Shown here: positions 18,591 to 48,430 of the stretch, one piece after another | Layout: every line of letters starts with the position of its first letter | How positions within the stretch are numbered: position 1 is the first letter of the stretch | Assembly (NCBI GenBank): GCA_034521575.1 | Contig: JAXHMJ010000002.1 | Coordinates: 280,706-344,705, forward strand | Length of the DNA: 64,000 nt | From: a candidate division KSB1 bacterium | GTDB taxonomy: Bacteria > Zhuqueibacterota > Zhuqueibacteria > Residuimicrobiales > Krinioviventaceae | Direction of reading: 5' to 3' | Program-made: the position numbers and the translations under genes | Notes under the pieces: model-generated | Database searches by the model: none | Seen by the model: the letters and a program-made list of their open reading frames with translations, nothing else | Told to the model about the DNA's origin: nothing

Positions 18591-18753
18591 GTTTTATCCG
18601 GGTTAGAAGCCGAAAGTTTTGATAGATTCAGATTGTAAACGCTTAAACAATTAAACCTTTCAACGAGTGCAACACTATGGTTTACCTGTGGTTTACCTGT
18701 GGTTTACCTGTTGATTTCCCGACCTTGCACCTTTGACTTTTAGACTTTACGAC

Positions 18754-19767: not shown

Positions 19768-19799
19768 ACTGGAAAACGAACTTTATAATATGGTAAGGT

Positions 19800-21784: not shown

Positions 21785-21873
21785 TCGCCCGCGCTGTTGA
21801 AATCAGAGTTCCGGTAGCTGTTATTTTTCTCCTGTCAAGGAATATTTTACTCAAACCTCTGTTTTATAATAGT

Positions 21874-23118: not shown

Positions 23119-23233
23119 GTCTTGATTTTTTTTGTTGTTATTGCTATTTTTTAATGAGGTATACCGTCAGACCGCAAAAGATACTGTTAAATGCTATCCG
23201 GGTCCGGCGAATAAACTATGTGGGAGGAATACC

Positions 23234-24945: not shown

Positions 24946-24976
24946 GTTTAATATTCAATAGACTGTATATAATCAA

Positions 24977-25007
24977 GGGTAATCGTGTATACGGTTGCCC
25001 TTTTTTT
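24977..25007 (+). terminator. Rho-independent terminator
   Basis: GGGTAATCGT (24977-24986) pairs, with two G-U pairs, with ACGGTTGCCC (24991-25000) around the loop GTAT. Seven T follow (25001-25007). It ends the lipoprotein transcript 32 bases after its stop and 14 bases before the next ATG. Confidence 0.8.
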
Positions 25008-25020
25008 CATGGAACGCCGG

Positions 25021-25740
25021 ATGAGTAAACCGCTTTACAACCTATGTTTTTGTTTGCTGCTCGCTTTTGGAGCGAGAGCTGAACCCTTTGCGTCGGTGTA
25101 CGGGTACAGTGGACTTTTTGTCACACCGACCGCGACGATCATGCCGGACGGGCAGATGCGCATCGGGGTCAGCCGCATGCCGCGGATTGATCATGTGCCC
25201 ATGGGCTATAAAGAACGCACCATGGTGTTCGGCGCTTTAAGCTATCTGCCGTTTATGGAAGGGTTGCTGGGCGTGGTGTCGCCGGACCAGCATCCCGCAG
25301 GTATGGGAACCCGTACGCTGGCGCTGCGCATGCGTTTACTGCGTCAAAGCCGATTATGGCCCGCCATTGCCATCGGCGCCCAGGACTTTGTCGGCGGAAA
25401 AGCGCTTGATGTTTCGATCAAAGGCTCGCAGCTGTTTGCCGCCACTTATGTGGTGTTGACCAAAGATGAAAAATTACCCGGATGGCTGGGACGAACCCCC
25501 CTGACCTGGAATATCGGTTACGGCACCGACTGGCTGGATGCCAATACCCACCATCTCGTCGGACTCTGGGGCGGTGTGTCGCTGCAGCCCATGCAGCCGG
25601 TCCGGGTTGTCGCTGAATATGACGGCCGCCATACCAATCTCGCGGCCAAACTCGATCTCTTTTCGCATCTGCAGGTGACCTATGCCTGGTGGAACCTAAG
25701 ATATATGACCTGGCAAATGAGTTTATACTTTACCTTGTGA
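25021..25740 (+). CDS. YjbH-like outer-membrane protein, short
   Basis: 239 residues from ATG 25021 (MSKPLYNLCFCLLLAFGARA, signal peptide). The mature part, YGYSGLFVTPTATIMPDGQMRIG, with GAQDFVGG, WNIGYGTDW and VRVVAEYDG, matches the N-terminal half of YjbH-type proteins. Full YjbH proteins are about 700 residues, so this resembles a single-domain member. A GTG at 24985 is in frame but lies inside the upstream terminator. It is the last gene before the radical SAM cluster and starts right after the terminator, so it probably has its own promoter. Confidence 0.65.
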   Translation: MSKPLYNLCFCLLLAFGARAEPFASVYGYSGLFVTPTATIMPDGQMRIGVSRMPRIDHVPMGYKERTMVFGALSYLPFMEGLLGVVSPDQHPAGMGTRTLALRMRLLRQSRLWPAIAIGAQDFVGGKALDVSIKGSQLFAATYVVLTKDEKLPGWLGRTPLTWNIGYGTDWLDANTHHLVGLWGGVSLQPMQPVRVVAEYDGRHTNLAAKLDLFSHLQVTYAWWNLRYMTWQMSLYFTL

Positions 25741-25778: not shown

Positions 25779-27728
25779 ATGAGCTACGCAACGTTTGAAA
25801 AAAGAGAAAAACTGCCGAATATACCGGTGCGGGGGACATTGACGCTGACATACCGCTGCAACAATGACTGCCGCCACTGCTGGGTGCGGGAAGCGCCGGG
25901 CGATCCAAAGAAAAAAGAAGAGTTGTCCACAGAGGAATGGATTGACCTGATCGATCAGGCGCGCGCCATGGGCACGCGCGAGTGGTCGATCACCGGCGGC
26001 GAGCCCATGCTGCGCCCGGATTTTCTCGAGATTTTTCAACAGGCCACCCGCCAGTACCGGCGCTATTCTCTCAACACCAACGGCACGTTTTTAACCCCCA
26101 AAATCGCAAAACAAATCGCCGCCAACCCCAAAGGCCGCATTATGGTGGCCCTGTACGGCGCCACTGAAGATGTCAATGACCATATCACCCGCAATCCGGG
26201 ATCCTACCAGGCCGCCCTGCGCGGTATGCGCTATTTAAAAGAAGCGGGCGTCAAGTTTGAAGTCCAGATCGTGCCCATGCGCGATAATATTCATCAATTG
26301 GAAGATATGAAAGCGTTGGCTGAAACGATCAGTCCGCATTGGCGGCTGGGAGCGGTGTGGTACTATTTGCACAAAGACCGGGATGAGAGTAAGAATAAAG
26401 AGATTCGGGCGCAACGTTTACCGGCAGAGGTCGTGGTTGAACTTGACAACGTTGCGTTTTCAGACCAGAATAAAGATAGCGCTTGTCAGATTCAAGCCTC
26501 GGGAAAAAATATCTTACAACCCTGTCTGGAAAAAATCAATCATTTTGCCATCGATCCTTTTGGACATTTATCGTTTTGTGATTTTATTAGAAAACCGGAA
26601 TTACTCTATGATTTGCGGAAAGGAACGTTTAAGGAGGGATGGGAACGGTTCATACCATCTTTGAATCAAGTCACAGCAGATACCGACTATACTGACAATT
26701 GCGGTGTATGCGGCCGGCGTTCTTCATGTCGCTGGTGTCCCGCCTACGCGTGGCTGGAAACCGGTTCTTTTTCCAAACCGATTTCTTATCTCTGTGATAT
26801 TGCTGATATGACCAGCCGCGAAAAACAGAAATGGCAGGATGAACATATTCGCTATTATTCGATTGGCGGATTGACAGTCAAGCTTGAATCGGAACTACCC
26901 GTTACGGATAACACCTTTGCGAGTTCAATTCGAACCTTTGAAACCTTACCGGCTCCCGAAGACCTTTATATTCGGCATTCATTTAATTTTCCAAATATGC
27001 AGCGGGTGGATTTCGGTCCGCGTTTACAAACCCGCGACGTCTGGGATATCCGCAAAAAGGGTGAAACGGTTTACTATTTGAAATATACCGACGAACAGCG
27101 GAATGGACATGAACCTGTGCGCATCACGGCCAGCAATGACGATCATTCGCGATGGTTTGTTTATCACCGAAATGATAAGGAATATAAAGATGGTGAACTG
27201 GAATCATTATCTTTTGCCCCGAATGATCAATTGATCCTGTCAAATCTTGTCGCCCATCATCAAAGCACCCTGGTGCACGCCAGTGGGTTTCAGGTGAATG
27301 ATCTGGGATTATTGGTACCCGGACAATCCGGCGCCGGCAAATCAACGTTTACAAAATTGTTCGCTGAGCAGGCTGATATTCTTTCCGATGATCGTGTTAT
27401 CATCAAAAAATCTGGCAACCGCTTTCAACTGTACGGTACCTGGAAACACAGCAGTATCCCCGCAGTCTCGCCGGGGCCTTCGCCTCTTTCCATGATTTTA
27501 TTCCCCGTGCATGACCGGGAAAACAAACTTGCACCCGTAAAAACCATGATGGACTTTTATCAGCAAATGCTGCCCAAACTCGTCAAGCCTTTACCCGACG
27601 AGAAGTGGTGGCAACATACCTTGTCATTTCTTGAAAAACTGTATGCCGCCGTACCCGCCTATTATGTTCATTTCGATCTCTCGGGCAGCATTGTACCGAT
27701 TTTACTTGAAACTGAAAGCTGTGTATGA
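25779..27728 (+). CDS. Radical SAM/SPASM enzyme fused to HPr-kinase-like domain
   Basis: 649 residues. The N-terminal half is a radical SAM peptide-modifying enzyme: the CxxxCxxC cluster is C27, C31, C34 in YRCNNDCRHCW, and ITGGEPMLRPDF is the SAM-binding GGE motif. Residues ~250-340 hold a SPASM domain, with Cys in NCGVCGRRSSCRWCPAYAW for extra Fe-S clusters. After a linker (~345-490) comes a P-loop kinase domain with GQSGAGKST (G515-T523) and ILSDDRVII, as in HPr kinase/PEP-carboxykinase-like proteins. Fusion of the two is unusual. It starts after GGAG, opens the cluster, and overlaps the next gene by ATGA. Confidence 0.85.
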   Translation: MSYATFEKREKLPNIPVRGTLTLTYRCNNDCRHCWVREAPGDPKKKEELSTEEWIDLIDQARAMGTREWSITGGEPMLRPDFLEIFQQATRQYRRYSLNTNGTFLTPKIAKQIAANPKGRIMVALYGATEDVNDHITRNPGSYQAALRGMRYLKEAGVKFEVQIVPMRDNIHQLEDMKALAETISPHWRLGAVWYYLHKDRDESKNKEIRAQRLPAEVVVELDNVAFSDQNKDSACQIQASGKNILQPCLEKINHFAIDPFGHLSFCDFIRKPELLYDLRKGTFKEGWERFIPSLNQVTADTDYTDNCGVCGRRSSCRWCPAYAWLETGSFSKPISYLCDIADMTSREKQKWQDEHIRYYSIGGLTVKLESELPVTDNTFASSIRTFETLPAPEDLYIRHSFNFPNMQRVDFGPRLQTRDVWDIRKKGETVYYLKYTDEQRNGHEPVRITASNDDHSRWFVYHRNDKEYKDGELESLSFAPNDQLILSNLVAHHQSTLVHASGFQVNDLGLLVPGQSGAGKSTFTKLFAEQADILSDDRVIIKKSGNRFQLYGTWKHSSIPAVSPGPSPLSMILFPVHDRENKLAPVKTMMDFYQQMLPKLVKPLPDEKWWQHTLSFLEKLYAAVPAYYVHFDLSGSIVPILLETESCV

Positions 27729-28906
27729 GTGAATATGTAGATAAAGTATACAATATCCCGTTTGATAAAAAAGCAGTGACATTGCGGCACCTGGATATCG
27801 AGTTGACGGAACGCTGCAACAACAATTGTGTACACTGTTACATCAATAAACCGGTTTCGCATCAGTGTGATGAGATGAGTACTGACTTTATCCGCGAATT
27901 GATTCAACAGGCTGCGGACAAAGGCTGCCTGAGTATCAGATTCACCGGGGGTGAGCCGCTGTTGCGTCCTGATTTTGCCGAGCTTTACACAGTTGCGAGA
28001 CAATTGGGCATTCGCGTTATATTGTTCACCAATGCGACATTGCTTCACACGGATATCATTACCTTGTTTACAGATATACCGCCGCTTTACCCCATTGAGG
28101 TGACGTTATATGGCATGCATCAGTCATCTTATGAGGCGGTATCCCGCAAGCCGAACACGTTCCGTCCTGCATGGGAGGGGATTCAGGCGTTATGGAAGAA
28201 TAATATTCCTTTTGTGGTCAAACAGGCTTTTCTGCCGCCCAATTATAATGAACGCCTGGAATTTGAAGCCTGGGCGGAAACCATACCGTGTATGAATCAA
28301 AAACCGGATTACGCGCTGAATTTTGATTTGCGGGTGCGACGGGATTCAGAAACCCGAAATCATGAAATACGCAATGTACGCATGAGTCCTGAACACTTTG
28401 TCGAAATTATGGCACGTAATCCCAAACGTTATCTGAATGAAATGCAGCAATTTATGAAAAAGTTTTCAAAACCGCCCGGTAACAAGCTGTTTACCTGCGG
28501 CGCCGGATGCTCCGCATGGACGGTGGATTCATTCGGCAATCTTCAGGTTTGTCTGATGGTGCGCCACCCGAACCTAATTGTCAATTTGCATGAGCTCCCC
28601 CTGGATGAAGCGATGCAGATATTGACCCGACGCAAAGAGTCTTTGTATTCCAGAAATATAGAGTACAGGGAACGATGTGCCCAATGCTTTCTTTATGACC
28701 GGTGTCGCCAATGTCCGGGAACGGCCTGGTGCGAACATGGGGTTATGGATCAACCGGTGGATTACTATTGTGCGCTGGCTCATGCTGAAGCACAGGCTTG
28801 CGGATTATTGACCGCCGGAGAAAAAGCGTGGGAGGTGAGAAACCGGGAAAATCGGATCAGAAAACTGCAGACAAGGGAACGGCTTGTACATGAAAAGTCG
28901 AGTTAA
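27725..28906 (+). CDS. Radical SAM/SPASM peptide-modifying enzyme
   Basis: 393 residues. The [4Fe-4S] site is C31, C35, C38 (ERCNNNCVHCYINK), followed by IRFTGGEPLLRPDF. The SPASM region near the C-terminus carries FTCGAGCSAW, CAQCFLYDRCRQCPGTAW and YYCALA. This class installs thioether or other cross-links in ribosomal peptides. It overlaps the upstream gene by four bases and the following GNAT gene by 17, so it is translated as part of one operon. The length is normal. Confidence 0.85.
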   Translation: MSEYVDKVYNIPFDKKAVTLRHLDIELTERCNNNCVHCYINKPVSHQCDEMSTDFIRELIQQAADKGCLSIRFTGGEPLLRPDFAELYTVARQLGIRVILFTNATLLHTDIITLFTDIPPLYPIEVTLYGMHQSSYEAVSRKPNTFRPAWEGIQALWKNNIPFVVKQAFLPPNYNERLEFEAWAETIPCMNQKPDYALNFDLRVRRDSETRNHEIRNVRMSPEHFVEIMARNPKRYLNEMQQFMKKFSKPPGNKLFTCGAGCSAWTVDSFGNLQVCLMVRHPNLIVNLHELPLDEAMQILTRRKESLYSRNIEYRERCAQCFLYDRCRQCPGTAWCEHGVMDQPVDYYCALAHAEAQACGLLTAGEKAWEVRNRENRIRKLQTRERLVHEKSS

Positions 28907-29420
28907 ATTTGGTCTGCTCTGCGTATTGCGTTCAGTAAAAAGCGTTCCGTTGATCAGGCGTAACCTTAAAAAGATGCAACGGCTTTTCGATGTTTATGAG
29001 GCGCAACCGGATGATATACCCGAACTGAAACGCTGGCTGAATAAAAAAAACAAAAAACCGACGGTTTCCGGTGAAAAGGAGTTCATTCTCATCGCCCGGT
29101 TTCAGGGCATGCTTGCGGGATGTATTCAATTAATCTATTTTGGCGAGATGCGTCCTCAAATGCCGCATTATTGGCTGTATGCGCTCATCGTCAAACCGCT
29201 GTTCCGCAGTATGGGATGCGGAGAAAAATTATTCCGATGCGCAATTGCATTTGCAGAGCAAAGACAGTTCAATACATTGCATTTGTTGGTGAATCCTGAA
29301 AATTCACAGGCTTTGAACATTTATCGGAAATCAGGTTTTGAGATGGATCATGACCTTGCATTCAGCTGGAATAACAACTATCAAATTTTGACCTATAAAA
29401 AAGGAGCAAAAAATGGCTGA
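28890..29420 (+). CDS. GNAT-family acetyltransferase
   Basis: 176 residues from ATG 28890; a TTG at 28884 is also in frame. The GNAT core is visible: FILIARFQGMLAGCIQLIYF (strands 2-3), YALIVKPLFRSMGCGEKLF with the acetyl-CoA loop (R/Q-x-x-G-x-G/A variant RSMGCG), and ALNIYRKSGFE. The N-terminus is basic. It could acetylate the peptide product or a transfer intermediate; the substrate is unknown. Its overlaps on both sides place it in the radical SAM operon. Confidence 0.8.
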   Translation: MKSRVKFGLLCVLRSVKSVPLIRRNLKKMQRLFDVYEAQPDDIPELKRWLNKKNKKPTVSGEKEFILIARFQGMLAGCIQLIYFGEMRPQMPHYWLYALIVKPLFRSMGCGEKLFRCAIAFAEQRQFNTLHLLVNPENSQALNIYRKSGFEMDHDLAFSWNNNYQILTYKKGAKNG

Positions 29421-29715
29421 CATCCAATGGGACAGCGTTTACAAACAGAACAAAGATGTCGTCGCGCGGGAAATTGAAAATGAATATATCCTGGTGCCGG
29501 TCACGGCGGGTATCGGGGACTTGGATGAAGAAATTTATGCTTTAAATGAAACCGGACGTCTGATTTGGGATAAAATTGATGGTATTAAAGATATAAATGC
29601 TGTCAAGGCGGAGCTGCTGAGCGAATTCAAAGTGCAGGAACAGGAGCTCGCCCGCGATATAAACGGGTTTGTCCAGGAACTGGAAAAACGCAATATTTTG
29701 ATCAAAGTGTCTTGA
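29413..29715 (+). CDS. PqqD-like RiPP recognition element protein
   Basis: A 100-residue PqqD-family protein: VVAREIENEYILVPV, IYALNETGRLIWDKIDGIKD, and the final helix VQEQELARDINGFVQELEKRNIL. PqqD folds bind the leader peptide of a RiPP precursor and present it to the radical SAM enzyme. It is the key marker that this is a peptide-modification locus. It overlaps GNAT by 8 bases and the S26-like gene by 4. Confidence 0.9.
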   Translation: MADIQWDSVYKQNKDVVAREIENEYILVPVTAGIGDLDEEIYALNETGRLIWDKIDGIKDINAVKAELLSEFKVQEQELARDINGFVQELEKRNILIKVS

Positions 29716-30200
29716 AACACCCCGAGATAAATAAAATAACGGTGACTGATAGGTTGCTTCCTAAAGTGCTTTCGGCTGTACTCCAAAATGGGGCGCTTGT
29801 CAGAAAACTGGCCTGTGGTAACAGCATGTACCCGTTTATCCGCAACCAGGATGTTGTGATCATTGAACCCTTTAACCGCAGGCCGCACCTGGGAGATGTC
29901 GTTGCCTTTCGGCACCCGAAATTTCGCGGTCTGGCCATTCATCGTGTGGTCGGCAGACGCAAAGATTCGTTTTTGTTGAAAGGCGATAACGCAAAGCGTG
30001 CCGACGGCTGGTTGGCTTTTTCCCAGTTGACCGGATGTGTCGTGCAAACAGAACGCAATGCCCGTCTGAGACGCCCCCAGTCCCGTCTTGAATCGATCCT
30101 CATTGCCGGTCTGTCCCGTATCGGACTCTTGATTCCCATTCGCAAAATGATCAAATCGAACATGCCCGGCATGGTTTCTCCGCTTCAGCGAATTTTTTGA
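29712..30200 (+). CDS. S24/S26-type signal peptidase-like protein
   Basis: 162 residues from TTG 29712 (overlapping the pqqD stop). The serine motif is GNSMYPF (S38) and a later IHRVVG and LLKGDN match the S26/S24 Ser-His or Ser-Lys fold. In RiPP loci of this kind such peptidases are often next to PqqD and HPr-kinase-like genes. It lacks the long hydrophobic N-terminal anchor of type I signal peptidases, so it may act in the cytoplasm or be a degenerate, non-secretory member. Role in trimming the precursor is possible, not shown. Confidence 0.75.
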   Translation: MKHPEINKITVTDRLLPKVLSAVLQNGALVRKLACGNSMYPFIRNQDVVIIEPFNRRPHLGDVVAFRHPKFRGLAIHRVVGRRKDSFLLKGDNAKRADGWLAFSQLTGCVVQTERNARLRRPQSRLESILIAGLSRIGLLIPIRKMIKSNMPGMVSPLQRIF

Positions 30201-30371: not shown

Positions 30372-31496
30372 ATGGAAAATTATCTTGAACAGCAACCGAT
30401 CACCGATTATCCCCTGTGGGAGCGATACAAAGGTCGGCATAAATTGCATACCATCACATTCGAAATCACGGAGCGATGTAATTTCAATTGCCGGCATTGT
30501 TATATTAACCAACCCGCCGGAGACAGGCAGCGTAAAAAAAATGAGATGTCAAGAGAGTTTATTTTAAAAACAGCGGATGAAGCTATTAATTTGGGCGCGG
30601 TGTGGTGTCTGCTCACCGGAGGGGAACCGCTTTTGCGCCCGGATTTCTCGGATATTTATATTGATCTCAAACGCAAAGGCCTGTTGTTGATGTTGTTTAC
30701 CAATGCCGGATTGATCACAAAAGAACATATCAACGTGTTCAAAGAATATCCGCCTTATGCCATCGAGGTTACGATTTACGGCGCGACCCGCGAAACCTTT
30801 GAAAAAGTGACCCGCAAACCCGGCTCTTTTGAGCGTTTTCGGCATGGATTGAATCTTTTAGTCGAACACAAGATTCCGGTGCGCCTCAAAGCCATGGCGC
30901 TGCAGTCCAACGTTCACGAAATGCAGGAAATCGCAAAGTTTGCGCGACAGTACACAGCAGATTTTTATCGTTTTGATCCGCAGCTGAGTCTGCGCGCGGA
31001 CTTTGATCAGGAACGCAATGAAATAATCAGGCAGGAGCGTTTGACCCAAAACCAGATCGTCGATCTTGAAAACCGCGATGATCAACGACGGGAAGCGCTG
31101 TCCAAACATTGTGATAAATATATCATGTCCGGACCGGACCGGCAAACCGCATACTTGCTCAACTGCGGAGCCGGAAACGGCAGTGTGGTGGTTTCTTATG
31201 ACGGAAGGCTGAAACTGTGTCCGTATATGCTTCAGCCCGAATTTATCTACGATTTGAAACAGGGTTCTTTGGCAGACGCATGGAAGACCTTTATCCCAAA
31301 CGTGCGCAAGACAACCACACAAAATCCGGAATACCTGAACCGCTGCAACAATTGCCGCATCTTTAATCTCTGTTCCTGGTGTGCAGCGCACGCCTATCTC
31401 GAAACCGGTCAGTCGGACCAACCGGTCGAGTATCTCTGTCAGGTGGCGCAGGCCCGCGCGGGAAAATCTGAGAAATCTCACAGAGACGAAAAGTGA
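30372..31496 (+). CDS. Radical SAM/SPASM peptide-modifying enzyme
   Basis: 374 residues. C36, C40, C43 in ERCNFNCRHCYINQ form the radical SAM cluster; LLTGGEPLLRPDF follows. The SPASM region has CGAGNGSVVVSYDGRLKLCPYM and CNNCRIFNLCSWCAAHAYLETG. It shares its ERCN.NC.HCYIN signature with the enzyme at 27725, so the two are paralogues. A 171-bp gap with no clear ORF precedes it. It overlaps the C25 peptidase gene by four bases. Confidence 0.85.
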   Translation: MENYLEQQPITDYPLWERYKGRHKLHTITFEITERCNFNCRHCYINQPAGDRQRKKNEMSREFILKTADEAINLGAVWCLLTGGEPLLRPDFSDIYIDLKRKGLLLMLFTNAGLITKEHINVFKEYPPYAIEVTIYGATRETFEKVTRKPGSFERFRHGLNLLVEHKIPVRLKAMALQSNVHEMQEIAKFARQYTADFYRFDPQLSLRADFDQERNEIIRQERLTQNQIVDLENRDDQRREALSKHCDKYIMSGPDRQTAYLLNCGAGNGSVVVSYDGRLKLCPYMLQPEFIYDLKQGSLADAWKTFIPNVRKTTTQNPEYLNRCNNCRIFNLCSWCAAHAYLETGQSDQPVEYLCQVAQARAGKSEKSHRDEK

Positions 31497-34400
31497 AAAG
31501 ACAGATTAAAATATGCCTGACAGCGTTTGTGATGCTTTATGGCGTTGGGTTGTCATTTTCTTTCGCTGCTCAACCCACAGTCTCCATCCTGGGTTCATCA
31601 GACACCCATCTCGAACTGCAGGTCAAATTCCCTGATTTTGATTTGATCCAGTCCGAGACCGGCTACGACATTACCATCCCCGGCTGCAGCCGCAAGAGTC
31701 AAATTGGTGCGCCTCAACTGCCGGTGTGGGCCCTGCAGGTGGCTGTGCCTCCCCGTGCGCACATTAGCATATCTTCTCAGCCGATTGATATCTATGAGTT
31801 TTCCTGTTTCAACATCACTCCGGCTCCGGTTCTGGCTGAATCTGTACCCTCGGACTCGCAGACTGTAAATTATGTCTTTAAACGAGATGATTCAATCTAT
31901 AATACCAGTCAGCATTTTCCCGCCTCCTGGTATATGGACGGCGAGCCGTATCAGCTGCGGTCACAGAAAATCCTGCCGGTTCGTCTGTTTCCGGTTCAAT
32001 ACAATCCGGTGACCGGACACGCGCAATTCGCACAAACAATGATCATTCGGGTGCGGTTTACAGGTGCATCAAGCCCCACAGGTGTTCACGATCCGAAAAG
32101 TCTGGACTGGGTGAAAAGACTGGTCTGCAATCCCGAACAGGCAGAGAAATGGCAATTTTCACCCGAGCTGCCCTTGAAAAAGCCCGCAGCCTTTCCGTCA
32201 TCAGCTCAGCCCTGGGTCAAAATCAGGGTGCCTCAGCCCGGCCTTTACCAGATAACCGCCGGCGATTTACAGGACATGGGCGTTGAGATTCAATCCATCG
32301 ACCCGGGCACATTGCAGCTGTTTCTGAATGGCGCTCAAGTTCCCATCGAGGTCGTTACGGGTCATGAGGCTTTACAGACTGGCGACAAAATCCGATGGGG
32401 GGTGGCACGGGTCGGAACGGAGTATACCCGCAAGAATACCTACTGGCTCACCTGGGGAGCAGAGCAGGGTGAAAGAATACACATCGACCATTCGTTTTCA
32501 GAGGCAGGAGAGATTCTGGTGCGCGGGCCCAGGACCATCCGCCTGGAGCAGCAAACCTATTATCTGAGCGAACTTGAAGCCCAGCCGCAGGAGGATCACT
32601 GGTTCTGGGAGCGGTTGATGAGCGGCCGACCCTTTCAGGTGGATTTTGAGGCGTCGCACGTGTCCGATACAGCCGCCAGTGCACAACTCGACGTTGAAAT
32701 GCTCGGTTATGTGCATTTGCCGGACGTCGAACCGGATCATCACACGGTCGTTTCTGTTAACGGAAATCAGGTCATCTCCGAGCTGTGGGATGGTCGCATC
32801 AGAAAACAGATGCAGAATACATTTCCCTTGAGCGATTTGAAAGACGGTGAGAACACAATTGATTTTGATCTGCAGTTGCCGGACCATGTGCCCTATGATT
32901 TTCAGTTCCTCGACAACATAGAATTGACCTGGTGGCAGGATTATATCGCTGACTCGGACAGCGTCTGGCTTACCGCCCTGGGTGAGGGGGAACACCGCAT
33001 CCGGTTACGCGGGCTGTCTCACAATGACCTCAGGGTATACGCCTTTGAAAACAACCATTGTATAAAACGCATAACCAATGTCCGGTATTCAGAGAGCGAA
33101 CCTTATTCTCTGCTTTTCTCAGACTCGCTTTCCGGAGAAAGACACTACTTGATTGTCAGGGACTCCCGGAGGCCGGATGAAATGTCTGTTTATAGTCCTG
33201 TTGACGTTACGGCGCCGCAAACGGATTATATCATTGTCAGTCATGCGGACTTTATACAAGCCTCTCAACAGCTTGCTGAATTTCACCGCTCCCGGGGATT
33301 GTCGGTGCAGGTGGTGGATGTTCAGTCTGTCTATGACAAGTTTAATTACGGTCACAAAGACCCGTCTGTCATTAAAGACTTTATTTCCTACGCCTATCAC
33401 AACTGGCCCAAACCGTCTCCGCTTTATTTGCTTTTGATGGGGGATGCCTCGTATGATTATTTGAATTACACCGGAAACGGGGAGACCGATTACGTGCCGA
33501 CGCATCTGTTTATCTCCAATTCCTATTCGTTCGAAACCGCATCGGACTCCTGGTTCGGTTGTGTCAGCGGATCGGACCTGGTCCCGGATCTGTATGTCGG
33601 CCGATTGCCGGTAAAGACCGCTGAAGAAGCGCAGGATGCTGTGCTGGATATCATGCAATATCATAAAAACCCGCAGGCGGACTGGCAGCGTTCTATGATG
33701 TTTGTTTCGGATGACTCGGATATCGGCGGCGATTTTGAAGGCTTTACCCAAAAAACAGTAGAGCTGGTCCCGGATGTTTACCAGGTTTCGGCCCTGTATG
33801 CCAAAGATATGCTGGATGAGACATCAGCGCGGGCAGCTCTCCTAAATGCTCTGAACCAGGGTCAATTGATCGTTAATTACATCGGACACGGGTCCAGGGT
33901 CAGCTGGGCGGCGCAGCCGCGCTTGTTCCATATCACAGATATCCCGAATTTACAGAATAATGCCAAAATGCCGCTGGTCATGACCCAAAGCTGTATCAAC
34001 GGCTATTTTATTCATCCCGACCCGGAACAAAGCGCCATGGGTGAGGTGTTTATGACCGCGGGACATCGCGGCGCCATTGCCGTGTACACCGGCGCCGGTT
34101 ATGCCTATCTGAGTCCGTTGCGCACCCTCACCGACCGCTTTTATCAGGCCTTGCTGCGCGAATCGATCGCAATGCCGGCGGCGGCCGCGACGCTGGCGCG
34201 CGCCGAGCTGTTGTCGCGTCATCCGGAAAAATGGGACCATGCGTTGTTTTATATGTTTTTCGGCGATCCGGCCCTGCAAATGCCGATCGCAGTACAATCG
34301 ACAATTGACCCGGCCTGGTACAGCGGAACCGTTGAAATAGAGGGAGAACCGGCGCCGCAGGGTGCTGCAATCTTTGCGCGCCATTTTACACGCCGATATG

Positions 34401-35227
34401 GGGACAGTGCGTTGATCAAAGAAAATGGCCGCTTTGACAGTCTACGGGTTCCGGCTGATAATCCTTACACCCCGCAGCGCGACGGCGCACGCACAGGCGA
34501 TTCTCTGTTTTTTTTCCTGGCAGTCTCCGGAGATACCTTGCTTTTGAATCCGGTGGTCGAATGGCAGAGCGGTTTACACTCGATGGACTTTGAGCTGTCG
34601 TCGACCGCTGTCGAAAATGATGTGACGATTCAATTGTACGTTAACAATCAGTCAGCCGATCAATGGATTTCAGGTGACCCCCTGCCGCGGGAGTCCAGGA
34701 TTACGGCAATGATACGGGATGAACATTCCAACATCGATCCGGAGCAAATCAGCTTGCTTTTGAATGACAGCAGCGTTGCTGATGAAAAATTGACGTGGAA
34801 TCAGAACGGACCAGAGCTGTCGGTTTCTTTTTCACCGGATTTACCGGATGGAGACTATAAACTCATGGTTTCTTTTCTATCCGGACCGGCGCGTGACCAT
34901 GCGCAATCCCTCCTGTTCCGGGTCCAATCGTCACTGGCATTGGAGGATGTGCTTGTGACTCCCAATCCCCTGTATACAGAGGGCGAGTTGACTTTTATGC
35001 TGCTCAACGACCAACCGGCCAATATTGTTCTGCGTTGTTTTACACTTGCCGGTCGGGCGCTCTGGACGAAATATTTTACCGCAACTGTCGGTTTTAATAC
35101 TTTTAAGATTAATGCCTATGATCAAACCGGCGATCGACTGGCCAATGGCGTCTACCTGATATCGGTTACGGCCAAAGATGATTATGAATCTGTAAAGAAA
35201 ATTGTGAAAATGATGCTGATACAATGA
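31493..35227 (+). CDS. C25 (gingipain-type) cysteine peptidase, secreted
   Basis: 1244 residues with an N-terminal signal peptide (ending SFSFAAQ). A long propeptide-like beta region precedes the caspase-like C25 domain. The catalytic pair is H799 in NYIGHGSRVSW and C834 in MTQSCINGYF. The C-terminal ~90 residues (LVTPNPLYTEGELTF, YDQTGDRLANGVYLISVTAK) form a FlgD-like secretion-sorting domain of the type IX system. C25 enzymes in this group can be PorU-like sortases or toxin-like proteases; here the overlap with the radical SAM gene suggests a role in processing the locus product. Confidence 0.8.
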   Translation: MKRQIKICLTAFVMLYGVGLSFSFAAQPTVSILGSSDTHLELQVKFPDFDLIQSETGYDITIPGCSRKSQIGAPQLPVWALQVAVPPRAHISISSQPIDIYEFSCFNITPAPVLAESVPSDSQTVNYVFKRDDSIYNTSQHFPASWYMDGEPYQLRSQKILPVRLFPVQYNPVTGHAQFAQTMIIRVRFTGASSPTGVHDPKSLDWVKRLVCNPEQAEKWQFSPELPLKKPAAFPSSAQPWVKIRVPQPGLYQITAGDLQDMGVEIQSIDPGTLQLFLNGAQVPIEVVTGHEALQTGDKIRWGVARVGTEYTRKNTYWLTWGAEQGERIHIDHSFSEAGEILVRGPRTIRLEQQTYYLSELEAQPQEDHWFWERLMSGRPFQVDFEASHVSDTAASAQLDVEMLGYVHLPDVEPDHHTVVSVNGNQVISELWDGRIRKQMQNTFPLSDLKDGENTIDFDLQLPDHVPYDFQFLDNIELTWWQDYIADSDSVWLTALGEGEHRIRLRGLSHNDLRVYAFENNHCIKRITNVRYSESEPYSLLFSDSLSGERHYLIVRDSRRPDEMSVYSPVDVTAPQTDYIIVSHADFIQASQQLAEFHRSRGLSVQVVDVQSVYDKFNYGHKDPSVIKDFISYAYHNWPKPSPLYLLLMGDASYDYLNYTGNGETDYVPTHLFISNSYSFETASDSWFGCVSGSDLVPDLYVGRLPVKTAEEAQDAVLDIMQYHKNPQADWQRSMMFVSDDSDIGGDFEGFTQKTVELVPDVYQVSALYAKDMLDETSARAALLNALNQGQLIVNYIGHGSRVSWAAQPRLFHITDIPNLQNNAKMPLVMTQSCINGYFIHPDPEQSAMGEVFMTAGHRGAIAVYTGAGYAYLSPLRTLTDRFYQALLRESIAMPAAAATLARAELLSRHPEKWDHALFYMFFGDPALQMPIAVQSTIDPAWYSGTVEIEGEPAPQGAAIFARHFTRRYGDSALIKENGRFDSLRVPADNPYTPQRDGARTGDSLFFFLAVSGDTLLLNPVVEWQSGLHSMDFELSSTAVENDVTIQLYVNNQSADQWISGDPLPRESRITAMIRDEHSNIDPEQISLLLNDSSVADEKLTWNQNGPELSVSFSPDLPDGDYKLMVSFLSGPARDHAQSLLFRVQSSLALEDVLVTPNPLYTEGELTFMLLNDQPANIVLRCFTLAGRALWTKYFTATVGFNTFKINAYDQTGDRLANGVYLISVTAKDDYESVKKIVKMMLIQ

Positions 35228-35461: not shown

Positions 35462-38400
35462 TTGGTAATGATCAATGTGTTGAAATACAGTGTGTTTGTT
35501 TTCATGGTGTATAGCGGATTGCTGTCTGCATTGTATGCAAATTCTGCCCTGCAGAGAACCCCGTCTATCAATATTCTCAGTTCTGATGAAAATGCTTTGA
35601 CGATCGAGTTTACGTTGCCCGATTTTACCGTTCAGGAAACCCGCCGCCATTCAGAGTACAATCAGATCATTCAGGTACCGGGATTTTCTCAAACCGCCGA
35701 CCCACGTGCGCCGCAGCTGCCCGTTACAGCGGTGACATTCGGTATCCCCCATGATGCGCAACCGACGCTCAGAATTCTCGACAAACAGACCGGCTATATT
35801 CCGGAAGCCTTTATCACTCCGGCCGCGGATATCGAACTGCCTGTTTCCGAAACGCCCTGGTTGCCGGATCCGGACAGACAGCCGGTGTATGTCTATGAAA
35901 CGGGCGAGGTTTATCAGTCAAACAGTCTATATCCGAACGAACCGATCCAGCTGAACGATCCAGTGATCATGCGCGGACAGCGCATGTCGGCGCTGCGCAT
36001 TCGGCCGTTTCAATACAATCCGGTCAGCAAACGCGTGCAGCTCATAAAGTCCGCAATCATTCGCATTGACTTTAACAGCGCGCTCGGCAAACGCAGCGCA
36101 GCGCTGAGGACGGCTCCGGCTGATACCTTTTTTCGGCCTCTGTATCAAAATACCCTGATCAATTACGAACAGGCAAAATCGTTTTTAGAACCGCCGCGTG
36201 CATTGCGAAAACAAAACAACGGCGGCTATTTTCTCGATCAGGGCAGCGAATGGCTGAAACTGCAAGTGGATCATAACGCCATCTACTGGCTGGAAAAATC
36301 CGATCTCGATGCCGCCGGATTCGATATGACCGGCAAAGATCCGCGCAACCTGAAGCTCTTTAACAAGGGAGAAGAAATCGCCATCCATGTCCACGGCCAG
36401 GACGACGGTAGTTTTGACAGCGGTGATTATATCGAGTTTTACGGAGACGGGCATAAATCATTTTATTCGCATACCAATGTCTATTGGCTGACCGTTTCAG
36501 GCAGTTCCGGTCTGCGCATGAGCGAAAAGGATGGGGCGCCGGATGCGTCGGCGTCGGTGCTCACGCGTGGAAAGACAAGAACCCACTTTGAGAAGGATGT
36601 TGATTATATTTCAAATTTTCCCAATAGCACAAATGAAGATAGATGGCGTTGGGACTGGATTGCCGGTGGTTATTCCAGTTATGAATCATGGACTACTCCT
36701 ATTATTTTATATAATATTTCTAACATTGCTGCCAGTGATTGCTATTTTAAGACTTGGGTTAAGGGGGGGACGCTGGATAATAATGTATATCCTGACCACC
36801 ATTTTATAACATATATTGCTCCAGCTTCAGACCCTTCTGATAAATCATTAGTTATGGATCATCAATTTGACGGACAAGTATTAGCTGTACATGAGGAATC
36901 ATTTTCGCAATTAGTTTTAAAGGAGAATAATCTTGTTGTCGAGTATTTTGGTCCAGGTGACACCGGGGCTGGGCTTGATGTTTTGCACATTATGAAGTTC
37001 CAAGTTGAATACTGGCAGGATTGGTTAGCGATCAACGATAGTTTGACCATACGCCCTCAGGGGAGCGGAGTAGTTGAATGTCATATCAAATCATTTCAGG
37101 ATAATTCCCTGTTGCTATACGATGTCTCAGATTCTACAGCCCCGCAGCGGGTTCTGAATGCGGACGTGACCGCTGACGGAGCGGTGTACACCCTGTCATT
37201 TCAGGGTGATGTGTCGGGGAATCCAAAATATACAGCTATAACCCCGGATAAACGCTATAAGCCGGATTCCGTTTATATGGATTCAAACTCTGACTGGAGA
37301 AACACAGGCCGGCAATCCGATTATGTGTTGATTGTCTTTGATGATTTTGCCGAAGCCGTTGCCGGGTTTGCTGAATTCAAACAGCAGCAGGGGTATCGGG
37401 TTCACACCGTCAAGGTGCAGGATGTCTATGATGAGTTTAATTACGGCTTGTACAGCGATCAGGCGTTAAAGAACTTTTTTCAATATGCCTATGATTTCTG
37501 GACCACAGCGCCGGCCTATGTACTTTTGGTGGGGGATGCGTCCTGGAATCCGCGTATGGTGAATCCGGGAAAATACGGCAGCTCGCGTTCTGATTTTGTG
37601 CCCACCCACATGTTCGAAACCATCTATCAGAACAACGAGTCGCCCACCGATCAGTGGTACGCCTGTGTCGACGGCGGAGATATTATCCCGGATATGATGG
37701 TGGGGCGTGTTCCGTCACGCTCTTTGAATGAAGCACGAGGGATCATGGACAAACTGCTGGCGTACCAGTCGGATTATGAGAACAGCGATTGGAACAAACG
37801 CTTGATTTTTGCTACAGATGATAACGAAGCGGAATTTGATTTCACCGGCAATTCGGATGCATTGATTGCTGACAATGTGCCAGGGTTGTATAGAATTGAA
37901 AAAATTTATCTGGATGATTACGGCAGCGCTTCGGCAGCGAAAACCGCTTTGCTGGACGCATGGGACCAGGGCGCTTTGTTTGTCAATTATCAGGGACATG
38001 GTTCCAATCAGCAATGGGCCAATGAAAATATGCTGCATCGCACCGATATCCCGGGTATGCGCAATGGCAGCCGACTGCCGGTTGTGTTGATCGAAGCCTG
38101 TAAAAATGGTGATTTTGTAGATCCCAGGATTGAGAGAACCTGTCTGGCAGAGTTCTTTTTGAAGGAACGCAGCCGCGGTGCGGCGGGGATGTATACGGGA
38201 GCGGGCTTTGCCTTTTTAACCCCGGTTCAGACTATGGCTGATGAGTTTTATCACGATGTGCTGATCAACCAGCAGCCCGTTTGGGGACAGTCTGTGATGA
38301 CCGCCTCGCAGGTGATGTACAGCACGCATCCGAGCTATTGGGATCATGTCTGGTTTTATATTTCCTTTGGCGATCCGTCCATGGCCCTGCATCTGCCTGC

Positions 38401-39351
38401 CGCTGAACATTTTGTGTCCGCACAGTATTCGGGTACGGTGTCCATGGGCGGTGAACCGCTTGCCGCCGGAAGTCCGGTTACCATTTGGAACGGCGACAAT
38501 TTCTTGCAGGAAACAAGCGTTCAAAATGACAGCGGACGCATCGGTCCCCTGCGTATTTATGCCGATAATCCCGAAACTGCGACTCTGGACGGCGCCCGGG
38601 CCGGGGATACGCTGACTTTTAAGGTAAGCATGGGGTCTGATACATTGAATCTGATGCCGGAGGTTGTCTGGCGTCCGGGAGATAAAAAAACGGTGAACTG
38701 GACCGTCATGACCACGTCTGTTCAGGAAAACACCATTCACACTATAGCCTATCAGATTCATTCAGAACAACGTCTGCAGGATGTATTCTCGGGTGATATT
38801 ATCCCCGCAAATTCCAGGCTGTGGGTGATCCTTGAGAGTGAGCAGCATGTGATCACCGACAGGCTCGGTTTTTATCTGAACGAAGATCCTGTTGAGTTTG
38901 AGGTGGTTGAACAAACCGGGTCAAAAACCCGATTGCAATTGAATACATCCGGATGGCCTGATGGAACCTACGAATTGTCACTTGACACGCCATTGCATCT
39001 TGGCAATGAGGCCGCGAAACTGAACAAGATCATGTTTCGGCTCGAGTCTGATTGTGCGCTGGAACAGGTTATGAATGTCCCCAATCCCATGCGTGATGAA
39101 ACGGAATTCACCTTTGTGCTGGTGAATGATAAATCCGCTGATGTTACGCGCTTCGACTGTTCACAACAAGCGGCCGACTCATTTGCGTGCTACAGCCCGG
39201 ACTATTGCCGGTGGGTTTCAATGCGGTTCCCTGGGACGGCCGGGATGGAAACGGCGATAGAATTGCGAATGGCGTCTATCTGTATCAGATTAAAGCAAAA
39301 GATCAGGATGAACAGGTGCAAAAAACCGGAAAAGTCTTGGTTGCCCGATGA
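35462..39351 (+). CDS. Second C25 cysteine peptidase (frameshifted C-terminus)
   Basis: About 1296 residues after correction, a paralogue of the upstream peptidase. Signal peptide at the start; catalytic pair H846 (NYQGHGSNQQW) and C880 (VLIEACKNGDF). Near 39160 an indel changes frame; restored, the C-terminus reads LRLFTTSGRLICVLQPG, NAVPWDGRDGNGDRIANG and YLYQIKAKDQ, a sorting domain ending at 39351. Without correction the frame runs to 39382 with unrelated residues. The stretch 36590-37080 is noticeably more AT-rich than the rest of the gene. The 230 bases upstream hold no gene, only GTTGAAATG repeats and filler. Confidence 0.75.
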
Positions 39352-39410
39352 AAAATGTTGTTTTTTTGTAAAAATATTGTGATATTATCTTTAACCTGAG
39401 GAGAACTTTA

Positions 39411-40433
39411 ATGAAGCGCTTGATTTTTTTTGTACTGACCGTATGCATGTTTTTTAATTTAGGCCGCTCCCAGGATCACCCTGTGCATATCACCTTGGTC
39501 GAGTTTTATACCGTATTTGATAAACCCAATCAGCATGTGGATGTCCACCGGGAAACCGGCAGTGAAAGCAATGTGTCGCATTTTAATATCTGGCGATCCA
39601 CCAATTCCACATCCTATGGAACCAAAGTTGTATCCTTTGTTCTAGCTGACGGTCCCGGCACCTATGATGTAACGGATTCGCCATCCGAAAGCGGGCGCTA
39701 TTATTATACCCTGGAAGAAGTGGACAATTCCAACAATTCGGTTTACAAGCAGCCTTATCCGCCTGAAACATACGATCCGTTCGTGGATGTTATTTTAAAC
39801 AGTGATCCGGTTTCCGATACCGAAACCATCAGCGGCAACGGCTGGTACGATTTTAATGAAGGCGGCAGCAGCGGTGATGCGCCGGGAGACGGTCATGCGG
39901 TCAAAGTTGAAATTCAAAAAGGCGATGACGGCACATTGACTGTCACGCAAAACAATCAGGCGCCGGCTGATGCGCCGGGCGCGGATGTGGCGCCCTATCA
40001 TTGGGAGTTTTCCGGTGATATTTTTAACACGGTGCGTATTTATTTTTATTATAATGATGAGGATGTTGCCGGTTTTGCCGAGAATTCAGATTATATCGGG
40101 ATTGCGCAATACAATCCCGGGTCAAACTCATGGAACTGGGTTGGAGGAACTGTGCATTCGAGCGGCAATTATATTGAAGTATCGGGTGTCACTCCCACCG
40201 GTACTTTTGCACTCTACCGACGGATTTTTGGAGATGTAAATGGTAATGGGTATGTGGATGGAGTGGATTTACAGCGTTTTGGAGATGTATGGCAGCAAAC
40301 ATCCGGCTTTACCACAGGAAGTGATCCCAGCTTTTTTAACTATAACAAAAATATGAGTGGTGGTAATCAGATAATTGATGGGGTGGATTTACAGGTTTTT
40401 GGAGATTGCTGGCATAATGGTGGTAATTATTAA
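39411..40433 (+). CDS. Secreted dockerin-like repeat protein
   Basis: 340 residues, signal peptide (FFVLTVCMFFNLGRSQ). After an Ig/fibronectin-like N-terminal region comes a ~110-residue beta module (WYDFNEGGSS, YHWEFSGDIFNTVRIYFYY, GTFALYRRIFG). The C-terminus has two dockerin-type EF-hand loops, DVNGNGYVDGVDLQRFGDVW and IIDGVDLQVFGDCWHNG. The same C-terminal ~200-residue module occurs in the protein at 41871. Dockerin-like repeats bind Ca and partner domains; no cohesin gene is visible in the window. Confidence 0.7.
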   Translation: MKRLIFFVLTVCMFFNLGRSQDHPVHITLVEFYTVFDKPNQHVDVHRETGSESNVSHFNIWRSTNSTSYGTKVVSFVLADGPGTYDVTDSPSESGRYYYTLEEVDNSNNSVYKQPYPPETYDPFVDVILNSDPVSDTETISGNGWYDFNEGGSSGDAPGDGHAVKVEIQKGDDGTLTVTQNNQAPADAPGADVAPYHWEFSGDIFNTVRIYFYYNDEDVAGFAENSDYIGIAQYNPGSNSWNWVGGTVHSSGNYIEVSGVTPTGTFALYRRIFGDVNGNGYVDGVDLQRFGDVWQQTSGFTTGSDPSFFNYNKNMSGGNQIIDGVDLQVFGDCWHNGGNY

Positions 40434-40446: not shown

Positions 40447-41610
40447 ATGAAACGATCGATACTATTAATATTTTCTTTTGTATTGTTGATTATACCGGCA
40501 TTGCTGATGGCTGGTCCAAATGCCGGTGCAGAATTTCGAGTAGATATAGAGTTGTCCTCACCGGGAAATGGTACAAATGACAATGTGACCCATGTTGAGG
40601 GCTTGACTTCGGGAGACGTTTTTTATGTTCACTGTTATTGTGTTGGGGTTTCCGATTTAGATGAATTTGATTTTATTATGAACTATGATCCATCAGAAAT
40701 TAATGATGGTGGATATTCTCCGAATAATGGATTTACTGAATCCAATATTTTGGGAAGTTCATTAACTTCCACAGGTTCAGCTGGCTCTGGATACAGAGAC
40801 GTCGCCTATACGGCGAGCGGAGAACAAACGGATGCAGAAGCTCCTGATGGTAATGGGTATCTTGGTTATTTTACATTACAGGCTGCAGTGGATAATCCCA
40901 AAGGTATTACGTTTTCTAGTGTACAATATGTAACAAATGATTCTGAGGGTGACTATCTAACAAATTATGACCATCAAGCCACATTCGGTGGGGGGTCCCT
41001 ACCCGTAGAGCTTTCATCCTTTGAGGCATGGTTGGATGCTGAACAGGTTACGATCAAATGGACAACTCAGAGTGAACAAAATGCCTTGGGTTTCAATGTT
41101 TTGCGCTCTGAATCTCAATCTGATGGTTATGTTAAAATTAACAGTGAACTGATAAATGCAGCTGGAACAAGTACTACTCAAAACACCTATGAATATCGGG
41201 ACTCTCAATTACAGACTGTTGAGAGCTATTGGTACATGCTCGAGCAGGTGGACACAGATGGACAGACAGAATTGTTTGGCCCGATTGAAGTAATGATCAG
41301 CACGGATGTTGTAGATGCGCAACATGCACCGGAAGACTATCGGTTGTATAGCAATTTTCCAAATCCGTTTAATCCGGTGACTTTGATTCGGTATGACTTG
41401 CCTCTTTCAGGATACACTGAATTGACTATTTTTGACATGACCGGACGCAAAATCAAATCGCTGGTGAGCGCGCATCAGTCCGCCGGCCAGCATGTGGTAC
41501 GCTGGGACGCTACTGATCAAATGAATGAACCGGTATCGAGCGGGGTTTATATTTACCGGCTTCAAGCTGGCAAAGAAATAAAAAGCCGGAAAATGATGTT
41601 ACTGAGGTAA
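40447..41610 (+). CDS. Secreted protein with type IX sorting domain
   Basis: 387 residues from ATG 40447 after AGGAGG; an in-frame start at 40375 lies inside the upstream gene. Signal peptide (ends LLMAGPNAG). Middle: cohesin/Ig-like strands (FDFIMNYDPSEINDGG) and a fibronectin-like region. The C-terminal ~90 residues, YSNFPNPFNPVTLIRYDLPL, YTELTIFDMTGRKIKSLV, and SSGVYIYRLQAGKE, are the classical FlgD-like type IX sorting domain. It lies 24 bases before the putative precursor gene. Confidence 0.85.
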   Translation: MKRSILLIFSFVLLIIPALLMAGPNAGAEFRVDIELSSPGNGTNDNVTHVEGLTSGDVFYVHCYCVGVSDLDEFDFIMNYDPSEINDGGYSPNNGFTESNILGSSLTSTGSAGSGYRDVAYTASGEQTDAEAPDGNGYLGYFTLQAAVDNPKGITFSSVQYVTNDSEGDYLTNYDHQATFGGGSLPVELSSFEAWLDAEQVTIKWTTQSEQNALGFNVLRSESQSDGYVKINSELINAAGTSTTQNTYEYRDSQLQTVESYWYMLEQVDTDGQTELFGPIEVMISTDVVDAQHAPEDYRLYSNFPNPFNPVTLIRYDLPLSGYTELTIFDMTGRKIKSLVSAHQSAGQHVVRWDATDQMNEPVSSGVYIYRLQAGKEIKSRKMMLLR

Positions 41611-41634: not shown

Positions 41635-41802
41635 ATGAAAAAAACGTGGGTGAAACCGAGTTTAAAGATACTGGTTCATAATCATGAGCAGGAAAATTTA
41701 ATTTTAGGTGATTGTACAGGAAGTAACTTATCTCAACAAAACGAAATTGGACAATGTGATGTTGAAAATTCATGTGGTAGCGTTTGTTCATCAGCTGTAT
41801 AA
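41635..41802 (+). CDS. Candidate RiPP precursor peptide (four Cys)
   Basis: A 55-residue ORF with a strong ribosome site (AAGAGGAGAGG, 4 bases before ATG). The N-terminal part starts MKKTWVKPSLKILVHN; its WxKPxLxxL pattern resembles leader motifs bound by PqqD-like proteins. The C-terminal part is small, polar and has C27, C41, C47 and C51 (ending SCGSVCSSAV), a plausible core for thioether cross-links; Gly25-Asp26 could mark the leader/core junction. It sits in the radical SAM/PqqD/C25/ABC locus where no other candidate is found. The assignment is inference; no database match was tested. Confidence 0.7.
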   Translation: MKKTWVKPSLKILVHNHEQENLILGDCTGSNLSQQNEIGQCDVENSCGSVCSSAV

Positions 41803-41870
41803 AGAAATTGTTTTTAAAATATTTTTTTTAGCTTATGCTGGGTATAACCGGCATTTTTTTCCGGTACAAT

Positions 41871-44646: not shown

Positions 44647-46491
44647 TTGTATTTTAAATCATTGATTGGTTATGTGCGGAATCACGGGATTTTCGGTTTG
44701 AAACATATCACGCATATCAAATTCATTCCCCGCGCCCTGGAGATCATCTGGCGCAATTCCCGATTGAACACTGTATTACGCCTGTTGCTGGTGCTTGTTC
44801 AGGGCGTCCTGCCGCTGCTCACGGTTTATCTGATGAAGCTCATCGTTGACAGTGTGACAAAGGCTATATCCGAAGCACAGCCCGATCCGTTTCCCATTCT
44901 GCTGTTAATCGCTGCCCTGACGTTGACCCATCTTGCTCTGTATTCCCTGAATTCTTTTTCCCGCTTTTTACAGGAAAAACAAAAAATGCAGGTGCTGGAC
45001 GAGTTGAGCGACCGGATTCATGAACAATCCGTGCGTATGGATTATGCCTATTATGAAAACGCCCACTATTATGATTCCATGCACCGCGCGCAAAAGCAGG
45101 CGCTTTCGCGTCCCACGGCCACCTTTGACAATACGGCTCAACTGCTGCAGAACGGCGTCTCCATGCTTGCCATGCTCTCCTTGTTGTTGTCGTTTCATTG
45201 GCTCGTGTCACTGCTGCTGCTGATTGCGGCTGTTCCCGGAATCTGGTTTCAGCTGCGTTATTCCGATCGATTGTTTCACTGGGAACTGGCGAACACCGAC
45301 GCCATGCGCAAATCTGCCTATTATTCCTCTATCCTCACAGAGGATCAATATGCTAAAGAGATCCGTTTGTTTGATCTGGGGAATGAATTCATCAACCGAT
45401 TCAGCCATCTCAAAACCGAATTGAGAACAGAACGGCTGCAACTGGCGCAGAAACGCTCCCTGCATCAAGTCGCGGCCCAGTGCATAACCGTGCTCACGAT
45501 TTTCGGATCCTTTGCCTTTGTGGCCTATCGCGCTGTTATGGGCTTGATCACCCTGGGCGATATGGTCATGTATTACCAGGCGTTTCAAAAAGGCGTGAAT
45601 TATCTGCGCGCCATGCTTTCCAGTCTGGCCAAATTATTTGAAGATTCGCTTTACCTCGCTAATCTGTTCGAGTTCCTGAGGTTCGAGCCGGAGATTCAAG
45701 ATCCGCCCGACCCCGAAAAAATTTCTGCAAAAGCCGGCGCTATTGAATTCAGACAGGTGGCCTTTACGTATCCGTTTGCAGCGCAGCCGGTGTTTACCGA
45801 TCTGTCTTTTAAGGTTCGGGCAAAAGAACATATTGCATTGGTGGGTCCGAACGGTTCCGGGAAATCCACTCTGGTCAAGCTGTTATGCCGATTGTATGAT
45901 CCGGATACCGGAACGATCGAAATCAATGGATTGAATATTCAACACTACAGAATCAAAGATTTGAGACAAGCTCTGAGTGTGGTGTTTCAGGATTTTTCGA
46001 GATATCATTTATCCGCATCTGAAAATATTCGGCTGGGCGATATTCATTCGCAGACCGACGAACAGACCATTCAAACTGCGGCGCAAACTGCCGGAATTCA
46101 TTCTCGTTTACAGGAACTCCCGGACAGCTATCAAACGCCGCTGGGCAAACGCTTTGAGAACGGCATGGATTTGAGTGCGGGAGAGTGGCAGAAAATTGCC
46201 CTGGCCCGGGTGTTTATGCGCGATGCCCCTATTGTCATTTTCGATGAACCCACCAGCGCCCTGGATGCACAGGCCGAGTATGACCTGCTGCAGCGTCTCA
46301 AATCCATGACCAGGGATAAAACCAGCATCTGGATCAGCCACCGGCTCGCCAGCGCTTCCCTGGCCGATCGCGTGCTGTTCCTGCAAAACGGCCGGATTAC
46401 CGAACAGGGCCCGCATCGGGACCTCATGAAGAACAACAACGAATACGCCGCATTCTACCGCAAACAATCGCAGTTTTACTGTGACAGCTGA
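44647..46491 (+). CDS. ABC transporter, fused permease/ATPase (peptide exporter type)
   Basis: 614 residues: an N-terminal six-helix exporter domain (VLRLLLVLVQGVLPLLTVYL and others) followed by an ATPase domain with Walker A GPNGSGKST (400-408), signature LSAGEWQKIALAR (509-521) and Walker B VIFDEPTSALD. The SAGEWQ signature variant is frequent in bacteriocin and RiPP exporters. There is no N-terminal C39 peptidase domain, so the leader must be removed by another protease, possibly C25 or S26. The start is TTG 44647; an alternative is TTG 44662. Probably exports the product of the locus. Confidence 0.85.
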   Translation: MYFKSLIGYVRNHGIFGLKHITHIKFIPRALEIIWRNSRLNTVLRLLLVLVQGVLPLLTVYLMKLIVDSVTKAISEAQPDPFPILLLIAALTLTHLALYSLNSFSRFLQEKQKMQVLDELSDRIHEQSVRMDYAYYENAHYYDSMHRAQKQALSRPTATFDNTAQLLQNGVSMLAMLSLLLSFHWLVSLLLLIAAVPGIWFQLRYSDRLFHWELANTDAMRKSAYYSSILTEDQYAKEIRLFDLGNEFINRFSHLKTELRTERLQLAQKRSLHQVAAQCITVLTIFGSFAFVAYRAVMGLITLGDMVMYYQAFQKGVNYLRAMLSSLAKLFEDSLYLANLFEFLRFEPEIQDPPDPEKISAKAGAIEFRQVAFTYPFAAQPVFTDLSFKVRAKEHIALVGPNGSGKSTLVKLLCRLYDPDTGTIEINGLNIQHYRIKDLRQALSVVFQDFSRYHLSASENIRLGDIHSQTDEQTIQTAAQTAGIHSRLQELPDSYQTPLGKRFENGMDLSAGEWQKIALARVFMRDAPIVIFDEPTSALDAQAEYDLLQRLKSMTRDKTSIWISHRLASASLADRVLFLQNGRITEQGPHRDLMKNNNEYAAFYRKQSQFYCDS

Positions 46492-47986: not shown

Positions 47987-48430
47987 GGGAGAAAATATAA
48001 ATTCATTTTTTGAGCGTTTGATTGTTTGTCTGCTTTTTTGAAATATTAAAAATTGGGCAACGAACTTGATTATTGAATTGTAAAACCTTAAAATGGATAT
48101 CACACAATATTCAATACGAAACAGCAAGATTTAAACCTTATTCAAAGCCGTTCAAGCTTGGTAGCCTTTAGATTAGATGAACGAAAACCTTATTACATTA
48201 TTTGATGAGCGAATACGTTCAGACGATCTGCTGATTTTTGTTCAAAATTACCAAACAGTAAATCACGATTAAAAAACCGCATTTTGGGGAAAAATGGTTA
48301 CTCAATTCAATGACATTAACCGGGACGAGATTTCCCAATGATTCGAGGCTGAGCACCAGTTGGACATGAAGACTTGCTCTTTTCAACTGCATTTTCTTCC
48401 TTTGACGCATAGCCAGAAATGCCCCCGAGC
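47987..48430. other. Intergenic region
   Basis: AT-rich sequence with no recognisable gene on either strand. It leads into array B, whose first partial unit appears near 48436 (GTCCCAGCGGGAC). Confidence 0.5.

Follow-up and report, generated by a model that had tools for sequence, protein, structure and literature searches.

The open reading frame at 41635-41802 (+) of the window, by which we mean the whole 64,000-nucleotide stretch of KSB1 DNA analysed here, is on the strength of its sequence a real gene, and we are nearly certain that it encodes a RiPP precursor. The predicted peptide of 55 codons (MKKTWVKPSLKILVHNHEQENLILGDCTGSNLSQQNEIGQCDVENSCGSVCSSAV) opens with WVKPSLKIL, closes with CSSAV and has Cys at positions 27, 41, 47, and 51; its start lies 24 bases past the stop of the gene for a T9SS-sorted protein, behind a strong ribosome site (AGAGGAGAGGG). 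The sequence-only reading had described the ORF, its four Cys, its WxKPxLxxL start, and its ribosome site, and all were present as described. The length of the ORF is no evidence in either direction, because ORFs as long are frequent by chance within the window. We used a noncircular profile of 21 relatives that left out the window's own peptide, and the ORF was its sole match among 1,547 six-frame fragments (26.6 bits, E = 3.8e-7; runner-up: 6.7 bits, E = 0.63). Shuffled versions of the peptide reached 15.2 bits at best, and 0 of 20,000 came near the real score. Pfam and NCBIfam assigned no family to the peptide or its relatives. This profile match, the retention of Cys and leader in the nearest relative, and the co-occurrence of precursors with a fusion of rSAM1 to an HprK-like kinase (the last two given below) lend the precursor role strong support.

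Table 1 Features around the predicted precursor gene in the window
Feature	Coordinates	Strand	Evidence or remark
rSAM1: radical SAM/SPASM maturase with C-terminal HprK-like kinase domain	25779..27728	+	kinase domain at ~residues 348-649
rSAM2: radical SAM/SPASM maturase	27725..28906	+	orthologue clade support 100/99
GNAT acetyltransferase	28884..29420	+	
PqqD-like RiPP recognition element	29413..29715	+	PF05402, E = 1.5e-14
S24/S26 family peptidase, candidate leader peptidase	29712..30200	+	PF00717, 5.6e-7; TIGR02228, 8.5e-10
rSAM3: radical SAM/SPASM maturase	30372..31496	+	orthologue clade support 100/97
C25 peptidase, PorU-like	31493..35227	+	PF01364, 5e-86; NF033707, 5.6e-96, below its cut-off
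Second C25 peptidase, PorU-like	35462..39382	+	
Secreted protein, function unassigned; weak dockerin-like C-terminus	39411..40433	+	homologue at same place in G043
T9SS type A sorted protein, directly upstream of precursor	40447..41610	+	TIGR04183, 9.1e-11
RiPP precursor peptide (predicted), 55 aa	41635..41802	+	WxKPxLxxL leader in residues 1-26; core from C27 onward Cys-rich, with four Cys
Terminator-like hairpin with T tail, 32 bases past precursor stop	41835..41854	+	weak
ABC exporter, 2.8 kb downstream of precursor	44647..46491	+	homologue beside G043 precursors

All genes from rSAM1 to the precursor lie on the + strand (Table 1). The three rSAM proteins each have CxxxCxxC and the SPASM Cys; none scored above cut-off with curated maturase or precursor models, the best matches below cut-off being the mycofactocin, heme b, and PQQ radical SAM models, and a plasmid search with rSAM1 as query returned mycofactocin enzymes. 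In the S24/S26 peptidase, SMYP and AIHRVVG correspond to sequences of Ser-His signal peptidases. Radical SAM, PqqD-like, and exporter genes had been placed around the ORF by the sequence-only reading; they are present in the locus, but 10.1 kb separate the ORF from the end of the closest upstream radical SAM gene, and two C25 peptidase (PorU-like) and two secreted-protein genes occupy the interval. Since a C25 peptidase also adjoins rSAM3 in the related genome G043, the T9SS link may be functional. Downstream of the precursor are an uncharacterized 783-aa protein and the ABC exporter, whose model matches cover permease and ATPase parts, with no C39 peptidase seen. The hairpin is weak evidence because shuffles yield at least as many such matches. 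Elsewhere in the window, at 15535-18316 and 48219-51090, short ORFs with near-identical translations are repeated, apparently as an intergenic repeat family.

The nearest relative carrying the precursor family is G043, from the same family as the window genome, with three paralogues that all keep the four Cys and the WxKPxLxxL leader. One of its contigs holds S26, rSAM3, and C25 together with a PorV-like protein, Doc, and the first part of a T9SS protein; a second contig has the last part of a T9SS protein, the three precursors, a methyltransferase, and an ABC exporter. Combined, these contigs, which are themselves unjoined, reproduce the gene order of the window. A profile built from the window and G043 peptides only (A1) found the family in eight more genomes among 80 searched, none of them used in training, and these were the genomes with the rSAM1-HprK fusion (8/8, P = 3.4e-11). 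Precursor homologues were found in 10 KSB1 genomes at the first pass and in 12 later, with maturase genes in all. The homologues that show this leader and Cys pattern are found in clusters with orthologues of rSAM1-HprK, rSAM2, rSAM3, PqqD, and the S26 peptidase, which bears out the precursor role first proposed from the letters of the window. Loss of the ORF or its Cys from relatives that keep the radical SAM genes had been named beforehand as grounds for giving that role up; both were conserved there.

In the tree, rSAM1, rSAM2, and rSAM3 form separate orthologous clades. In G015 and G056 the clusters are smaller and contain a single rSAM plus a separate HprK; the rSAM enzymes of these two genomes fall outside the main rSAM3 clade. 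In G048 the rSAM1-HprK gene is in two halves separated by transposase-like ORFs (L073:4448-9006). A second type of small peptide, with KP leaders and many Cys-Gly-rich units, was seen at L068:15337-15552 and 14744-14965 (-) and at L072:6003-6242 (+); it adjoins other radical SAM, PqqD-like, and S26-like genes and appears to represent another RiPP family within these clusters.

We assessed the spread of the family outside KSB1 by genome sampling. The family consensus is [WY]xKPxLxxVxLxPEEAVLxxCK followed by a Cys-rich core. Of 388 sampled genomes, eight from outside KSB1 matched at E = 1e-3; 25 of 285 matched at 1e-6 in the phylum of G365, and 4/4 in the phylum of G123, while a contig scan with a narrow pattern returned only the known G043 contig. 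Precursors lie beside radical SAM genes in several uncultured phyla, with a peptide-kinase-like gene in most clusters, and the operon PqqD-rSAM-precursor-HprK-S26 peptidase recurs in many loci of other phyla. An association of rSAM1 with a CxxC-type core end is suggestive, the sample being small and the clusters mixed. G123 has about ten near-identical precursor copies, ending ...PEEAVLGVCKSDTGAGPNQSTCIIPQCFNPGS; those inspected (L153:7939-8094, L155:7895-8080, L155:10685-10840, and L158:7192-7347) follow large, apparently exported protein genes, with no maturase gene within the fetched stretch.

The peptides of the family typically end in Ser or Thr, a feature overlooked in the sequence-only reading, which also passed over the S26 peptidase and the HprK-like kinase domain carried by rSAM1. 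Within KSB1, a C-terminal Ser is found in 21/21 relatives, compared with 17/175 background ORFs; the window peptide ends in Val. Among 64 distinct peptides outside KSB1, 55 have a terminal Ser and five a terminal Thr, and of the remaining four at least one is an incorrect long frame; where HprK lies in the fetched locus, 26/26 end in Ser or Thr. In these tallies each peptide was counted once, though some loci were fetched twice, and related sequences are not independent. We rejected the idea that Thr-ended precursors go without a kinase, as 4/5 have HprK in the locus.

The HprK-like domain of the window has an intact His-Lys-Asp-Asp motif (H, GxxxxGKS, and DD). Its AlphaFold (AF2) model (pLDDT 89.7) matched PEPCK (E = 9e-7) and HprK/P (E = 5e-6) in a Foldseek search of the PDB, with modest TM-scores, so that the modeled fold is the expected one of the HprK/PEPCK superfamily; phmmer with the same domain against the PDB returned only chance ABC-transporter matches. 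The full motif was found by pattern in 22/27 HprK fragments outside KSB1 (some loci counted twice). In lasso peptides, the kinases PadeK, ThcoK, and PsmK phosphorylate a C-terminal Ser and need the His-Lys-Asp-Asp motif (PMC9266682, PMC10368454). By this analogy, phosphorylation of the C-terminal Ser or Thr is a probable trait of the family at large. BsfK, also a lasso kinase, phosphorylates a Ser inside its peptide (PMC10368454), and the presence of HprK is thus no proof of a C-terminal site.

Of the kinase-linked members seen, only the window peptide lacks a C-terminal Ser or Thr, and its phosphorylation is accordingly doubtful, or would have to occur at S52 or S53; we consider it rather unlikely that this peptide is phosphorylated. 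It also departs from the family in R15 (H), in K28 (T), and in a PEE motif with one extra residue, and it is the most divergent W-type member (profile A2: 49 bits vs. 62-80 for the others). The CSSAV end may reflect drift, use of S52 or S53, or an assembly fault. These same departures would fit a decaying copy, one whose kinase site and some of whose leader consensus are gone and which is drifting or no longer used. Such decay is improbable, since the window gene retains its reading frame, its ribosome site, the leader core (W5, P8, L10, and L13), and all four Cys, and in the same locus rSAM1, rSAM2, rSAM3, PqqD, and the kinase motif look intact.

We think it likely that the gene encodes a radical SAM RiPP precursor on which PqqD, the three rSAM enzymes, the S26 peptidase, and the ABC exporter would act, each chemical step being inferred. 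PqqD-like recognition elements bind W/Y/LxxP (PMC12710340), and the locus has what is expected of an RRE-dependent precursor: a small ORF conserved beside maturases, a PqqD-like RRE, and a W/YxxP leader. The WxKP leader would be bound by the PqqD-like protein, which would present the peptide to the three SPASM radical SAM enzymes; these may modify the core from C27 onward, most probably through Cys cross-links to carbons of the backbone or side chains, and thioethers are somewhat favored as the cross-links. In the family at large, the HprK-like kinase, fused to rSAM1 in the window, is predicted to phosphorylate the C-terminal Ser or Thr. By homology, the S26-type peptidase is the likeliest enzyme to remove the leader, and the ABC transporter would export the finished peptide. 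The 10 kb between the precursor gene and the nearest maturase gene count against this pathway, as do the departures of the window peptide from the family pattern and the apparent origin of most relatives as metagenome-assembled genomes.

A true precursor could also be accompanied by an HprK-like domain with some other substrate or with a role in regulating export, in which case the C-terminal Ser would serve processing or attachment. The matches to NCBIfam HprK-related models, all below cut-offs, and the low identity to true HprK/P would agree with this, but the domain has the full kinase motif and HprK adjoins the precursor gene in most relatives, all other HprK-linked members end in Ser or Thr, and wherever the fused copy is degenerate (motif lost in L072, L074, and L077) the same cluster has an intact second HprK; we regard this alternative as improbable, if slightly less so than decay. 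It is much less probable still that the peptide, instead of being modified and exported, provides the scaffold on which a small redox cofactor of the PQQ or mycofactocin kind is made: PqqD is present and the best subthreshold rSAM scores are to models of cofactor systems, but the cores are variable and multi-Cys, there are several paralogues per cluster and an exporter, and none of the cofactor-type downstream enzymes was seen. As for a functionless chance ORF, of which the many similar-sized ORFs in the window might be taken as a sign, it is refuted by the profile match, the conserved Cys, synteny, and co-occurrence, and we give it almost no weight.

With the radical SAM RiPP reading, several known systems share parts of the locus. 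Lasso peptide systems (PadeK/paeninodin, ThcoK, PsmK/PsmN of pseudomycoidin, and BsfK) share with the family a YxxPxL-type leader, a discrete PqqD-like RRE, the His-Lys-Asp-Asp HprK-like kinase, the C-terminal Ser (which the window peptide lacks), and, in several clusters, a nucleotidyltransferase (PMC9266682, PMC10368454). The window family differs in having SPASM radical SAM enzymes, a Cys-rich core, and an S26-type peptidase instead; no lasso cyclase (Asn synthetase-like) or B2 protease gene was seen among the window proteins scanned. We ranked a lasso reading below the radical SAM one. Sactipeptides and ranthipeptides share the Cys-rich core, SPASM rSAM maturases, RRE, and ABC exporter, whereas the window has a kinase and three separate rSAM enzymes, its thioethers are predicted, and the curated models score below cut-off. 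The SynChlorMet cassette, compared by its NCBIfam components ScmC, ScmD, ScmE, and ScmF, resembles the locus in gene content (HprK-like, PqqD-like, and a pair of radical SAM/SPASM components), but matches to all four models were weak and far below cut-offs. PQQ and mycofactocin systems share PqqD/PqqE-like partner enzymes and differ from the window system in precursor, core, and context.

The family is apparently an undescribed group of chemically modified natural products, and we found no paper on an rSAM/HprK precursor group in the open-licence literature searched. It matches a precursor to radical SAM, PqqD, and HprK-like genes that were otherwise without a substrate, and it offers a rule open to testing, namely that Ser or Thr terminates kinase-linked peptides. 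If true, radical SAM peptide chemistry and lasso-type peptide phosphorylation would be joined in one pathway across several uncultured phyla. We tentatively propose, at somewhat less than even chances, a widespread and undescribed RiPP group that combines SPASM Cys chemistry with C-terminal Ser/Thr phosphorylation and further capping by NTP_transf_5. Several clusters lie beside exopolysaccharide genes, so a phosphorylated end could attach the peptide to sugar; such genes (Wzz, Poly_export, YjbH, and sugar transferase) were seen at 18733-25740 of the window and in the flanks of L068, L071, and L109. A Butyrivibrio plasmid (L134:7680-9703) carries an HprK-like gene, a 57-aa Cys-rich ORF (MKKAYVKPELK...), PqqD, and S26, with no radical SAM gene within the stretch, and this locus lies near NTP_transf_5 and polysaccharide glycosyltransferase genes.
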